From NCBI GenBank assembly GCA_024693345.1, contig JAILLB010000040.1:1-32303 (forward strand): a DNA stretch of 32,303 nt, read 5' to 3'. The notes under the pieces are model-generated. The model had not been told where the DNA came from. It searched no databases and saw only the letters and a list, made by a program, of their open reading frames with translations. How positions within the stretch are numbered: the stretch's first letter is position 1; every line of letters starts with the position of its first letter. The translations under genes and the position numbers were made by a program. This document shows, in pieces, positions 18,444 to 25,981 of this stretch. This stretch comes from Clostridiales bacterium. GTDB lineage: Bacteria; Bacillota; Clostridia; Oscillospirales; CAG-272.

Positions 18444-19925
18444 TTATATTTTCCCGTTAATGTCGTTCAGAACATTTGCATTTCTTGTAACACTGACGCT
18501 TCCAAACAAACCATTCAACAAGTCATTATATTTCCCGTTGTATATTTCTTCGTAAATATCTCCTTTGTATGCCGGGAGTCCTTCACCTTCAAAGTATACT
18601 ATGTGATAACCATACGTTGAGGACAACAAATCTATGTCGCCTGTCCTTCTCTTGGGCTTAAATGTCCAATCATTAAATGACTCTACGAACGTGTTTTCCT
18701 TTACATTGCTGTATAGTCCGCCTTGAAATACTGAGCCTGAATCAGATGAATAAGCGCATGCAAGGTCTTTAAAAAATTCCAAGGTTTTGTTTGCTTTTAG
18801 TTTTTCATAAATAGTGTTTGCAAGTTGTTCGGCTTTTTCTTGTGAACCGTATTCATTTGAATCAAATAATATGTGTCTTACGCTCTTTGTGTTTGCTTCG
18901 TCAGGTGTAGGTTCTGCTGTTATGAAATAAACCGTCATCGAGTCAGTTTTGCTATCTCCGGTTGCTTTTGTCACAAAGGATTTGCAATCGTTAACATTTG
19001 ATGAGAACAGCCATTCAACCACTTCTTCAGATAATTCGTTATTTGTTTTTGTCACTTTGTCAGTGCTGTTGTCTATAACTGCGTCGACATCCAATGAACC
19101 ATCAAGCGTATAGTATTTTCTGAGGAGTTCAACAAATTCATCTTTTGTTGTGGCTTGTGTCAATGCATCAACTCTTGTATCAATTTTGTTCTTGTTTTCG
19201 TCCGTGTATGCATATATGACAGACATATATTCTATGTAGTCATATTCGTCTTTGTTGTTTGAATAATACTCGTCAATTTCTTCGTCAGTAACAACTATGC
19301 CTTCAGATACTTCTGTGATGTATTTGTTTGCCAACACTTTGAGTTTGAGACAATTTTCAACATCAGAAACGTTCACTCCGTTACCTATTACGGACAAATC
19401 TGTCTCTTTTGCTCTGATTGAAACAGCATTTAGGTCTTCATCACTCAAAGTAATATTATTTGCATATGCCAGTTCACAAGCTTTCAAAACATTGGTTGCT
19501 GATGATTCTGCATCAGCTGTAAAGAAATCAAACCATGTGCAGTTTCCTGTTCCCATGTCTGTTGTTGCATAGATGCATGCTTGTTCTTTCAGGTCTTTGT
19601 TCACATCTAAGAACGATGATAGGGAAGAAGCATAATACTCTTTGAATGAATTGTACGAGTCATGTATGAAATATGACATCATAGCTCCGTCAATCTTATA
19701 ATGTTCGGTTTCAATGAATGTCTGGCTTCGGATTTTTGCTCCGGAGTTGTTTATTATTGTGATTACAATGAAAACGAGTGCAACTGCAACGCAAATCGCA
19801 ATGAAAACGATAAGTGAAATCTTAAGAGCCTTTTTAGTGTTTTCTTTTTTCTGGATGGCCTGCTGTCTTTCTTTTTCTTTTCTTTTCTTTTTGGCAGTAA
19901 TGGCCTGTTTATCTTTTTTTGCCAT
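18444..19925 (-). CDS. membrane-anchored parvulin-type peptidyl-prolyl isomerase (SurA/PrsA-like)
   Basis: SVRHILF...LACAYSSDSGSVFQGGLYSNVKENTFVESFNDWTF...GYHIVYFEG PpiC motifs; one N-terminal TM; RBS before 19925. Confidence 0.85.
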   Translation of the reverse strand: MAKKDKQAITAKKKRKEKERQQAIQKKENTKKALKISLIVFIAICVAVALVFIVITIINNSGAKIRSQTFIETEHYKIDGAMMSYFIHDSYNSFKEYYASSLSSFLDVNKDLKEQACIYATTDMGTGNCTWFDFFTADAESSATNVLKACELAYANNITLSDEDLNAVSIRAKETDLSVIGNGVNVSDVENCLKLKVLANKYITEVSEGIVVTDEEIDEYYSNNKDEYDYIEYMSVIYAYTDENKNKIDTRVDALTQATTKDEFVELLRKYYTLDGSLDVDAVIDNSTDKVTKTNNELSEEVVEWLFSSNVNDCKSFVTKATGDSKTDSMTVYFITAEPTPDEANTKSVRHILFDSNEYGSQEKAEQLANTIYEKLKANKTLEFFKDLACAYSSDSGSVFQGGLYSNVKENTFVESFNDWTFKPKRRTGDIDLLSSTYGYHIVYFEGEGLPAYKGDIYEEIYNGKYNDLLNGLFGSVSVTRNANVLNDINGKI

Positions 19926-19940
19926 GTAATATCTCCTAAA

Positions 19941-19968
19941 AAACAATTCCCAGACTAAATCTGGGAAT
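19941..19968 (-). terminator. terminator of the upstream minus-strand CCCH-protein gene
   Basis: ATTCCCAGA-ctaaa-TCTGGGAAT; T-rich tract on the minus strand. Confidence 0.75.
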
Positions 19969-19976
19969 AAATGTTT

Positions 19977-20411
19977 TTACTCTGCTTTTTCTTCGCCAGT
20001 TTCTTCGGAAGCTTCTTCTTTGTGACAGCAGCATCCTTCTTCTTTTTTCTCTTCCTGCTCTGAACTTTCTTCGGTTTTTTCGGAATCATGACAGCAGCAA
20101 TGATCTTCGCCTTTGTGGCAGCAGCACTCTTCACTCTTTGTGAATGTCTTTTTTACAAAATCCACACCACTCTGAACTGCGCCGTTGACATTTTCCTTAA
20201 TTACTGAAAAATCACTCTGAGAAGGAAGTCCTGCAAAGTTTGCATCGAATTTCTTGTTGACCGTTCCGTCTTCATTAGTTGTTTTCTTGATAGTATATTT
20301 GAAGAGGAGTGAACGATACTCTGTTTCACCGTTTGTTTCGTCTGTTTTTGATTTGAACGGAGTCAATACCAAAGCAGCTGTTGCAGCTGCAGCAATCCAT
20401 AGTCCTTTCAT
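19977..20411 (-). CDS. small membrane-anchored/secreted protein with three CCCH clusters in an acidic tail
   Basis: Start 20411 has RBS AGGAGG; MKGLWIAAAATAALVLTPF...SEECCCHKGEDHCCCHDSEK...EEGCCCHKEE. Confidence 0.75.
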   Translation of the reverse strand: MKGLWIAAAATAALVLTPFKSKTDETNGETEYRSLLFKYTIKKTTNEDGTVNKKFDANFAGLPSQSDFSVIKENVNGAVQSGVDFVKKTFTKSEECCCHKGEDHCCCHDSEKTEESSEQEEKKEEGCCCHKEEASEETGEEKAE

Positions 20412-20493
20412 GATAATACCTCCTAATAAATTCTGCGTAAATATTATATCAAAATACAATAAAAAATCAAGTAGAATCGAATATCCAAAGTGG

Positions 20494-21450: not shown

Positions 21451-21492
21451 GTTAGTCGTTAAGATTTTTTGGAGAATTGGAAGGATATTTTT

Positions 21493-23859
21493 ATGTTTAG
21501 AGTAGTAAAAAGAGACGGAAAAGTTGCTGAATTTGATCTGTCGAAAATCAATGAAGCCATAAAGAAGGCATTTGATGCGACAAAGACCAATTACACTGAT
21601 CAAATTATCGACTTTATATCTCTCAAAGTAACAGCAGACTTCAACAAAAAGATTAAGGATGACAAGGTATCCGTTGAAGACATCCAGGACAGCGTTGAAA
21701 AGGTTTTGGGTGAAGCAGGATACGGAGATGTCGCAAAGGCATACATCCTTTACAGAAAGAACAGAGAAAAAATCCGTAACATGAATGCTACCTACCTTGA
21801 TTACAAGGCATTGGTTGACAGTTATGTTAAGGCAACAGACTGGCGTGTAAAAGAGAACTCGACAGTTACTTATTCAGTTGGCGGACTTATTCTCTCCAAC
21901 TCAGGTGCCATCACAGCAAATTACTGGCTTTCAGAGATTTATGACCAGGAAATTGCAGATGCACACAGAAACGGAGACATGCACATTCACGACCTCAGCA
22001 TGCTTACCGGTTATTGTGCGGGCTGGTCACTCAGACAGTTGATTAAAGAAGGTCTCGGTGGTGTTCCCGGAAAGATTTCAAGTTCACCTGCAAGCCACCT
22101 TGCAACTCTCTGCAACCAGATGGTTAACTTCCTCGGAATTATGCAGAATGAATGGGCAGGTGCTCAGGCATTCTCATCATTTGATACATATCTTGCACCA
22201 TTTGTACGTGCAGACAACCTTGACTATTCTGCAGTAAAGAAATGCATCGAGTCATTTATATATGGTGTAAATACTCCGTCTAGATGGGGTACGCAGGCAC
22301 CATTCTCAAATATCACTCTTGACTGGAAGGTTCCTGCAGACCTTGCAGACCAGCCTTGTATCGTTGGCGGAAAAGAGATGGACTACACATATGCTGACTG
22401 TAAGAAAGAAATGGATATGGTCAACAAGGCATTCATCGAAGTCATGATTGAAGGCGATGCAAACGGCAGAGGATTCCAGTATCCTATCCCGACATATTCA
22501 ATCACAAGAGATTTTGACTGGTCAGAAACAGAGAACAACAAGCTCCTGTTTGAAATGGCAAGCAAATATGGCACTCCATATTTCTCCAACTATGTCAACT
22601 CTGACATGGAACCTAGCGATGTCCGGAGTATGTGCTGCCGACTCAGACTCGACTTGAGAGAACTCCGCAAGAAATCCGGTGGTTTCTTCGGAAGCGGTGA
22701 ATCAACAGGTTCAGTAGGCGTTGTTACAATCAACATGCCGAGAATCGCATATCTCTCACAGAACGAAGAAGAATTTTACGAGAGACTCGACCATCTCATG
22801 GATATAGCTGCACGTTCACTTAAGACAAAACGTACAGTCATTACAAAGCTTCTCGATGAAGGTCTGTATCCTTACACAAAGAGATATCTCGGAACATTCA
22901 ACAACCACTTCTCAACAATCGGCCTTGTAGGCATGAATGAAGCAGGACTCAATGCCCGTTGGATTAAGATGGATATGACACATCCTGAGACACAGCAGTT
23001 CACAATCAATGTCCTCAACCACATGCGTGAAAGACTTAAAGATTACCAGGAAAAATACGGTGACCTTTACAACCTCGAAGCAACACCTGCAGAAGCTACA
23101 TCATACAGACTTGCAAAACATGATAAGGATAAATATCCAGACATCGTTACAGCAAGCATGAGCGAGACTCCGTACTATACAAACTCAAGCCACCTTCCGG
23201 TTGGATATACAGATGACATCTTTACAGCTCTTGACATCCAGGATGAACTACAGACTCTATACACATCAGGAACAGTATTCCATGCATTCCTCGGAGAAAA
23301 GCTTCCTGACTGGAAAGCAGCTGCAGATCTCGTCAGAAAAATATCTGAAAACTACAAACTTCCTTATTACACATTGTCACCTACATATTCAATCTGTATT
23401 GACCATGGTTATTTAACAGGTGAACAGTACACATGTCCGATATGCGGAAAGAAGACAGAAGTCAACAGCCGTATCACAGGTTACTATCGTCCTGTTCAGA
23501 ACTGGAATGACGGTAAGGCTCAGGAATTCAAACAGCGCAAAGAATATGTAATTGCAACATCCAAGCTTCGTCATCAGGGTGTAATCCAGCATGCAAGTGA
23601 CTGTCCGCCTGTAACAGAAGAGAAAATTGCTGAAGTATCCAGCGAACTCAAACTGTTCACAACAAAGACATGTCCGAACTGCAAGATTGCGAAACAGATG
23701 CTCGAAAAAGCAGGAATCTCATACGAGAATCTTTACGCTGACGAACACAAGGAAGAAGCGCTCAGTCTTGGAATCAATCAGGCACCGACTCTCGTAGTCG
23801 GCGGCAACAAGTACAAAGGCGTTCCGGAAATCAAGAAATATATCGAATCACTTTCATAA
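21493..23859 (+). CDS. nrdD: class III (anaerobic) ribonucleoside-triphosphate reductase with C-terminal glutaredoxin/thioredoxin-like domain
   Basis: N-terminal ATP-cone; CIDHGYLTGEQYTCPICG metal site and SRITGYYRPVQNWNDGK glycyl-radical region; last 70 aa LKLFTTKTCPNCKIAKQML...QAPTLVVGG...GVPEIKKYI (23647-23856). Confidence 0.93.
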   Translation: MFRVVKRDGKVAEFDLSKINEAIKKAFDATKTNYTDQIIDFISLKVTADFNKKIKDDKVSVEDIQDSVEKVLGEAGYGDVAKAYILYRKNREKIRNMNATYLDYKALVDSYVKATDWRVKENSTVTYSVGGLILSNSGAITANYWLSEIYDQEIADAHRNGDMHIHDLSMLTGYCAGWSLRQLIKEGLGGVPGKISSSPASHLATLCNQMVNFLGIMQNEWAGAQAFSSFDTYLAPFVRADNLDYSAVKKCIESFIYGVNTPSRWGTQAPFSNITLDWKVPADLADQPCIVGGKEMDYTYADCKKEMDMVNKAFIEVMIEGDANGRGFQYPIPTYSITRDFDWSETENNKLLFEMASKYGTPYFSNYVNSDMEPSDVRSMCCRLRLDLRELRKKSGGFFGSGESTGSVGVVTINMPRIAYLSQNEEEFYERLDHLMDIAARSLKTKRTVITKLLDEGLYPYTKRYLGTFNNHFSTIGLVGMNEAGLNARWIKMDMTHPETQQFTINVLNHMRERLKDYQEKYGDLYNLEATPAEATSYRLAKHDKDKYPDIVTASMSETPYYTNSSHLPVGYTDDIFTALDIQDELQTLYTSGTVFHAFLGEKLPDWKAAADLVRKISENYKLPYYTLSPTYSICIDHGYLTGEQYTCPICGKKTEVNSRITGYYRPVQNWNDGKAQEFKQRKEYVIATSKLRHQGVIQHASDCPPVTEEKIAEVSSELKLFTTKTCPNCKIAKQMLEKAGISYENLYADEHKEEALSLGINQAPTLVVGGNKYKGVPEIKKYIESLS

Positions 23860-24823: not shown

Positions 24824-25981
24824 CTATTGACTTTTTTGGAAGTTTTTGCAGTTATCAATGTTATTTTTCAAAAGACCTATTACAGCATTAGTTCTCGGAA
24901 TGTTCATAGTCTTTTTTGACAATCCGTACGTGTTGGTGGCAAATATTTCTATTGACTCAAGACGATCGAAATTGTATTTTGGCATGTTGTTAAGTAAATA
25001 CAATCTGTCTTCGGATTTCTTCGCAAAAGGAGTTCCTCCCCATACTGTCTTTGGATTCAATATGTCTTTGAAAGGCATATAGTACCCGAGAGAGTTGCCG
25101 CACCCGAATAACGGGGCATGCTTTATAAATTTCAATGTGTTGGCATCTCTTAAAAGACCGAAATCCGTGTAACTCCTGTCGTCGTTGTTCATTATTCTGT
25201 CAATAACGAACATGTTGCTCAAAAACGTGAACGTATCTGTGACACCGAGTTTTTCACAGCACTTTATATAGTGAACAAGATCTGAATCGGATTTTTCCTT
25301 TTTGAACATTCTCGTTACCTGAAGAGCGGGAATGAACTCGGTATCCTGATTTGTAAAACAATAGCAGACGCTTAAAGGCAAGTCTTTTTCCATTATAACA
25401 TCATACTGGACATGATCAATTCCGAGACGATTGCATATTTCAGAAAATAAAGAGTCATTTAAAGGTTGCTGCCTGTATGGAGGAGTGCCCATCTTGATGA
25501 GGCATATGTTTCCGTTATTGTATTTCCAGTACTTTTTCGTGTAGCCTGTTGTTGTGTTCTCTGGCGAACGCATGTTGAAACCATATGCTTCAACCTTCAT
25601 TCCGTATAGGACATCGGCTATGTCCTGTGTAAATTCGTTTTGGAAAAAGTTTACATTTTTCCATGACAAGTCCACATCAGCCTTTCTCATCCAATAGCAA
25701 TCCTGAAGGCTTAAAGCCATACCTTTAAGTTTCAGCTGTGAGAGATTTTTTAGACAAATGCAGCTAAGCATGTAGTCAATATTGGCTTTATCTTTCGGCA
25801 GCGAACGTTCTTCCCACCAGTTTAGAAAAGTCTTTTTTGTAAAGTTTCCTTGGGCATCATAAGAACCGGGAGGCAGTAGTTTTGAATCGACTACATTCGT
25901 AATCTTTTTTAATCCCGACCTTTTTTCATCAAAATCGAATTCTGCAACCGGATTGTCTTTATGCATCAATATGTATTTCAT
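24824..25981 (-). CDS. stand-alone HipA-like kinase-fold protein (divergent)
   Basis: LSNMFVIDRIMNNDDRSYTDFGLLRD...KHAPLFGCGNSLGYY resembles the HipA/CtkA catalytic and Mg-binding region. Confidence 0.65.
   Translation of the reverse strand: MKYILMHKDNPVAEFDFDEKRSGLKKITNVVDSKLLPPGSYDAQGNFTKKTFLNWWEERSLPKDKANIDYMLSCICLKNLSQLKLKGMALSLQDCYWMRKADVDLSWKNVNFFQNEFTQDIADVLYGMKVEAYGFNMRSPENTTTGYTKKYWKYNNGNICLIKMGTPPYRQQPLNDSLFSEICNRLGIDHVQYDVIMEKDLPLSVCYCFTNQDTEFIPALQVTRMFKKEKSDSDLVHYIKCCEKLGVTDTFTFLSNMFVIDRIMNNDDRSYTDFGLLRDANTLKFIKHAPLFGCGNSLGYYMPFKDILNPKTVWGGTPFAKKSEDRLYLLNNMPKYNFDRLESIEIFATNTYGLSKKTMNIPRTNAVIGLLKNNIDNCKNFQKSQ

Follow-up and report, generated by a model that had tools for sequence, protein, structure and literature searches.

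The window, the whole 32,303-nucleotide stretch of DNA that was analyzed, comes from a rumen-type gut bacterium and contains a gene for a real and unnamed small protein with a Cys-rich acidic tail. This protein most likely works in the manner of a metallothionein or phytochelatin, and we give a probability of roughly 55% to the reading that it is membrane-tethered and that its disordered tail binds metal ions as such a buffer, probably facing the cytoplasm. The combination of three adjacent Cys with acidic residues recurred on unrelated proteins, and this order-wide Cys3-acidic module is a more interesting result than the single protein.

The gene (positions 19977 to 20411, minus strand) encodes an anchored protein of 144 aa whose acidic tail carries three CCCH units, and each of the five genus genomes had a homologue. 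The ORF finder ran the same frame further upstream, to 224 aa; judged from the sequence, the start is the ATG at 20411, which has a ribosome-binding site and is used by the orthologues. This site, AGGAGG (20419 to 20424, minus strand), lies 7 nt upstream of the ATG, and a consensus scan (10/12) predicted a promoter-like site, TTGATT-16-TATAAT with an extended TG, at 20443 to 20470 on the same strand. Scanning and folding placed an intrinsic terminator with a 10-bp stem followed by TGTTTTTT at 19946 to 19968 (minus strand; z = -3.6), before the ribosome-binding site of the downstream PrsA-like gene. The first-pass annotation had given the gene its own ribosome-binding site and terminator; both were recovered and, together with the promoter-like site, they support a monocistronic gene. 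The downstream gene (18444 to 19925, minus strand) encodes a PrsA-like membrane foldase with a PPIC rotamase domain and is kept in two orthologue neighborhoods (L010, L011). The neighbors of the gene were this foldase and the divergent nrdG/nrdD, and no metal-related gene lay beside it in the window. The anaerobic ribonucleotide reductase NrdD (21469 to 23859) has a C-terminal glutaredoxin domain (residues 728 to 780) and stands beside nrdG and trxB. Further along, a 385-aa protein (24824 to 25981, minus strand) had no Pfam match at E up to 1.

The protein consists of a hydrophobic anchor (MKGLWIAAAATAALVLTPF), a core of ∼70 residues and the tail (SEECCCHKGEDHCCCHDSEKTEESSEQEEKKEEGCCCHKEEASEETGEEKAE). 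The anchor covers residues 3 to 19 (GLWIAAAATAALVLTPF; 20355 to 20405, minus strand), with a hydropathy of 1.73 over 17 residues and a predicted helix at residues 4 to 16. The core (residues 20 to 90; 20142 to 20354, minus strand) has homologues elsewhere and was predicted by AlphaFold2, in a model built with three sequences, to be folded, with a pLDDT of about 90 for residues 21 to 80, strands at 20-24, 29-33, 37-45 and 51-59, and a helix at 65-90. The tail (residues 93 to 144; 19980 to 20135, minus strand) was predicted to be disordered, and its pLDDT fell below 50 at residues 109-128 and 132-144. Hydropathy, AlphaFold2 and tail composition thus agreed on the anchor, small core and acidic tail described previously, and the earlier statement that the protein belongs to no recognized family held against Pfam and NCBIfam, where no family was matched at E up to 1. 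A sequence profile search gave no match of note, and the model matched no PDB structure at E < 0.001.

The 52 tail residues include 18 Glu, 2 Asp, 9 Cys, 4 His and 6 Lys, with a net charge of -14. The three CCCH units with their nine Cys, as first annotated, were exact in the translation: residues 96-99 (20115 to 20126; TGC TGC TGC CAC), 105-108 (20088 to 20099; TGC TGC TGT CAT) and 127-130 (20022 to 20033; TGC TGC TGT CAC), all located by pattern search on the minus strand. When the tail was shuffled 200,000 times, three CCCH units arose in none of the shuffles and two in four; the three-cluster tail is not a product of chance. The CCCH codon pattern occurred at 27 places in the genome of the window, three of them in this gene, and at each of the other 24 a longer open reading frame ran across the site in a different register. 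The gene appears to be the only one of its genome with in-frame CCCH. A further candidate, CCCH on a CobW-type gene of the same genome (L108/L003), was rejected, as the site was out of frame and in a different GTPase gene.

Comparison within the genus redefined the repeated unit. Two of the orthologues come from public MAGs, Clostridiales bacterium Tb.RUG.188 and uncultured Ruminococcus RUG13708, where RUG stands for rumen genomes. CCC clusters were present in four of the five genomes, two to five in each: CCCK, CCCC and CCCS with 19 Cys in all in L010, CCCK, CCCN and CCH with 14 Cys in L011, and CCCG twice in L013. The fifth orthologue (L012) kept the acidic tail and lacked Cys clusters, so the family can do without them. 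Repeat conservation, on which the earlier proposal had been staked, therefore stood in that clusters occur in most of the genus, and did not stand in cluster number, which varied down to none. The CCCH unit itself had to be given up: with K, N, S, G or C following the three Cys, the His is not conserved, and the unit is better described as Cys3 plus acidic residues. As far as the sequences tell, acidity is constant in these tails, Cys3 clusters are usual and His is incidental. Among the three closest orthologues the core was 60-73% identical and the tail about 50% with many indels; gap columns in the alignment numbered 13-21 in the tail vs 0-2 in the core. A search of genome contigs with the window protein alone found nothing, and a search with a three-sequence alignment matched only two genus members already known.

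Within the order, profile searches traced the anchor-core to further genera and families. Its motif is x-P-(Y/F)-x-V...(K/R)-(S/A)-L, and the window protein fits the TPF/VPY anchor-core family that we define here by a short hydrophobic anchor ending in x-P-(Y/F)-x-V and a (K/R)-(S/A)-L core. In profile-profile comparison, the genus set matched a set from g35 and family f14 with a probability of 97.1 at full length and 96.4 with the tails removed. CCC-acidic tails stood on the same core in a g35 member (L037, ECCCEEPCESAECC) and in members of f14 (KEECCCEDEACCCGEDDCCCDEE in L138, DEECCCCGEE in L054). In two g35 genomes, an anchor-core paralogue adjoining gyrA ended in a DNA-binding FtsK_gamma domain (L131:1438-2073, minus strand; L130:991-1809, plus strand).

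The module was also found outside this family. A three-cluster DNA pattern was run over 340 genomes of the taxonomic family and located CCC-acidic stretches on a MEKKNCPCKG single-TM protein in five g103 genomes, on a TM plus zinc-ribbon-like protein in g34, on a coiled-coil zinc-ribbon-like protein in g46 and, as (CCCDDD)n ahead of a zinc-ribbon-like end, on a CD1247 N-terminal domain protein (NF045650) in g90. A further single-TM carrier of a CCC-acidic tail (L104, g38) was found by profile. The CD1247-type protein with (CCCDDD)n (L097) and a second CD1247-type protein with a CCC-acidic stretch (L133) have no anchor. A strict pattern (CCC, two acidic residues, up to 30 bases, an acidic residue and CCC) matched in 13 of 192 genomes of the order, spread over nine genera and seven families, and in none of 210 genomes drawn from the phylum (Fisher p = 5e-5, an optimistic and only indicative value because genomes within the order are related and not independent). 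All 16 strict matches were in frame, with lengths divisible by three, and lay in small acidic Cys-rich ORFs, most of them with a single hydrophobic anchor; the reversed-pattern control gave 0 matches. The window gene falls outside the strict pattern because His, Lys or Gly flank its clusters, and at least two CCC runs, in frame and with acidic residues between them, were found in the window protein, L010, L011 and L013. A tail-only profile, which was too insensitive, matched in two genomes only and carries no weight in the argument. The tail had originally been treated as a feature of one protein; its presence on unrelated carriers across the order makes a portable module the better description. 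No account of CCC/acidic tails turned up in literature searches. Separately, a conserved protein of ∼280 aa containing about eight consecutive Cys (CCCCCCCCDEIPQGVCC) was observed at L061, L064, L066, L096 and L102, and the L102 protein had no Pfam or NCBIfam match. Such proteins in g9 and g32 (L061, L096, L102) were considered as relatives and set aside as a different family.

The clusters also occurred in a setting associated with metals. In COG0523 proteins, His-rich stretches have been interpreted as an indication of metallochaperone activity (PMC2770081). The three-cluster pattern also located a COG0523 GTPase in g53 (L092:2103-3314, minus strand; genome G227) with (HHHHDHDEECCCHEHE)n in the loop between its cobW and CobW_C domains, where six CCCH units alternate with HHHHDHDEE repeats. 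The genome of the window itself encodes a COG0523 GTPase with a long and extremely His/Asp/Glu-rich loop at the homologous site (L105:1471-2664, contig C105). Metal chelation or thiol buffering, the function first put forward for the tail, is still the best idea for its putative role, and it gains independent support because CCCH sits in the His-rich loop of a COG0523 metallochaperone from the same bacterial family. We infer metal binding, the identity of the metal, the membrane side and transfer to partners as follows. The N-terminal helix and the small beta-plus-helix core would hold the tail at the membrane, most likely on the cytoplasmic side. The cytoplasm of an anaerobe is reducing, and there the tail's nine thiols, four His and about 20 carboxylates could capture soft or borderline metal ions, with Zn, Cd, Cu(I) and Fe(II) as candidates, and hold them as metal-thiolate clusters. 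The tail would buffer such ions or pass them on, in the manner of a metallothionein or an encoded phytochelatin.

The encoded phytochelatin analogue EC20 consists of repeated Glu-Cys units. Phytochelatins and EC20 resemble the tail as repeated polymers of an acidic residue and cysteine; the window protein, with putative metal binding, differs in that it is encoded by a natural gene, has its Cys in CCC runs with irregular spacers and carries a membrane anchor. Directly translated EC20 has served as a chelator of Cd, Hg, Zn, Pb, Cu and Ni (PMC4611968). Bacterial metallothioneins (SmtA/BmtA and those of Pseudomonas) are likewise small and Cys-rich with some His, and one from Pseudomonas binds Zn3 or Cd4 through Cys9His (PMC7387436). 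The window tail, with 9 Cys and 4 His in 52 residues, has the same number of Cys. However, classical metallothioneins space their Cys as C-x-C and C-x2-C, whereas the window protein has three adjacent Cys, an acidic disordered tail and an N-terminal anchor with a core, and by the profile tests applied here (Pfam, NCBIfam, E up to 1) it is no member of a known metallothionein family. The likeness to COG0523 (CobW-type) proteins lies in the L092 loop; the window protein lacks the G3E GTPase domain with its CXCC motif and had no cobW match in Pfam. PF12669 proteins of Firmicutes (PMC8749426) are also small membrane proteins with a Cys-rich motif, but this motif is Cx3-5Cx2-3Cx6-8C rather than CCC runs; the window protein had no Pfam match and no feoB lay nearby. 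CD1247 proteins (NF045650), some of which carry the CCC-acidic stretch in this order, are coiled-coil proteins that lack an anchor and are unrelated to the anchor-core of the window protein.

The protein is likely at the membrane, and the cytoplasm is the favored side for the predicted tail. With an N-in/C-out anchor the tail would instead be exposed on the surface, where it could catch metals or become disulfide-linked to wall or host material; some distant relatives with long N-termini (L025, L029, L051), which have the strongly positive segments KRRRKIR or KKKK ahead of the anchor, agree with such a topology. We regard it as improbable, since FtsK_gamma binds DNA after the same anchor-core in two g35 genomes, which places that side in the cytoplasm, and since positive charges follow the TM segment in other CCC-acidic carriers (L091, L101, L104) and some carriers have no anchor at all. 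Neutral drift of an unconstrained, acidic, disordered tail, in which slippage produced TGC/GCA runs and functionless Cys, would account for a cluster number of 0 to 5 among close species and for the TGC-rich codons of several carriers, yet it is at least as improbable as an outward tail. Both TGC and TGT occur in the clusters, and the L010 orthologue uses 9 TGC and 10 TGT codons, so the clusters are not simply a GCA/TGC triplet expansion; the even use in L010 points to selection on the amino acids. Drift is also opposed by the Cys frame kept across the spacer in every strict match, by the empty reversed-pattern control, by the concentration of the strict pattern in one order and by the rarity of Cys in the other genes of the window (1.6% of codons).

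A polymeric, membrane-tethered store of thiols that scavenges oxidants or electrophiles, linked to nrdG, nrdD with its glutaredoxin domain and trxB, is a more serious competitor, if still an unlikely one. The divergent nrdG, nrdD and trxB adjoin the gene, the nrdG neighborhood is kept in L010 and L011 with nrdG also near in L012, and proteins rich in Cys are able to scavenge reactive oxygen species (PMC7387436). The idea of a redox operon is weakened because this neighborhood is not kept in L013, where the neighbors are a CPBP protease and infC, or in other genera; a promoter-like site and a terminator of its own flank the gene, and redox buffering leaves CCCH in a metallochaperone loop unexplained. 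Redox buffering, an outward tail and neutral drift are thus weaker than the metal buffer.

For the module as a whole we suggest, tentatively and with less confidence than for the metal-buffering tail of the window protein, that it may be a gene-encoded, portable 'peptide phytochelatin' gained repeatedly by unrelated anchors and soluble proteins, which would form a putative, so far unrecognized and distributed system of metal or thiol buffering in one anaerobic gut order. Its short length and its disorder hide this low-complexity module from profile libraries. It gives predictions on stoichiometry, metal specificity and membrane side for which short peptides suffice. Little has been described of how strictly anaerobic gut Firmicutes buffer metals; if the suggestion is true, the Cys3-acidic module would offer a new route for metal capture at the membrane, and engineered phytochelatins would have a counterpart in nature.
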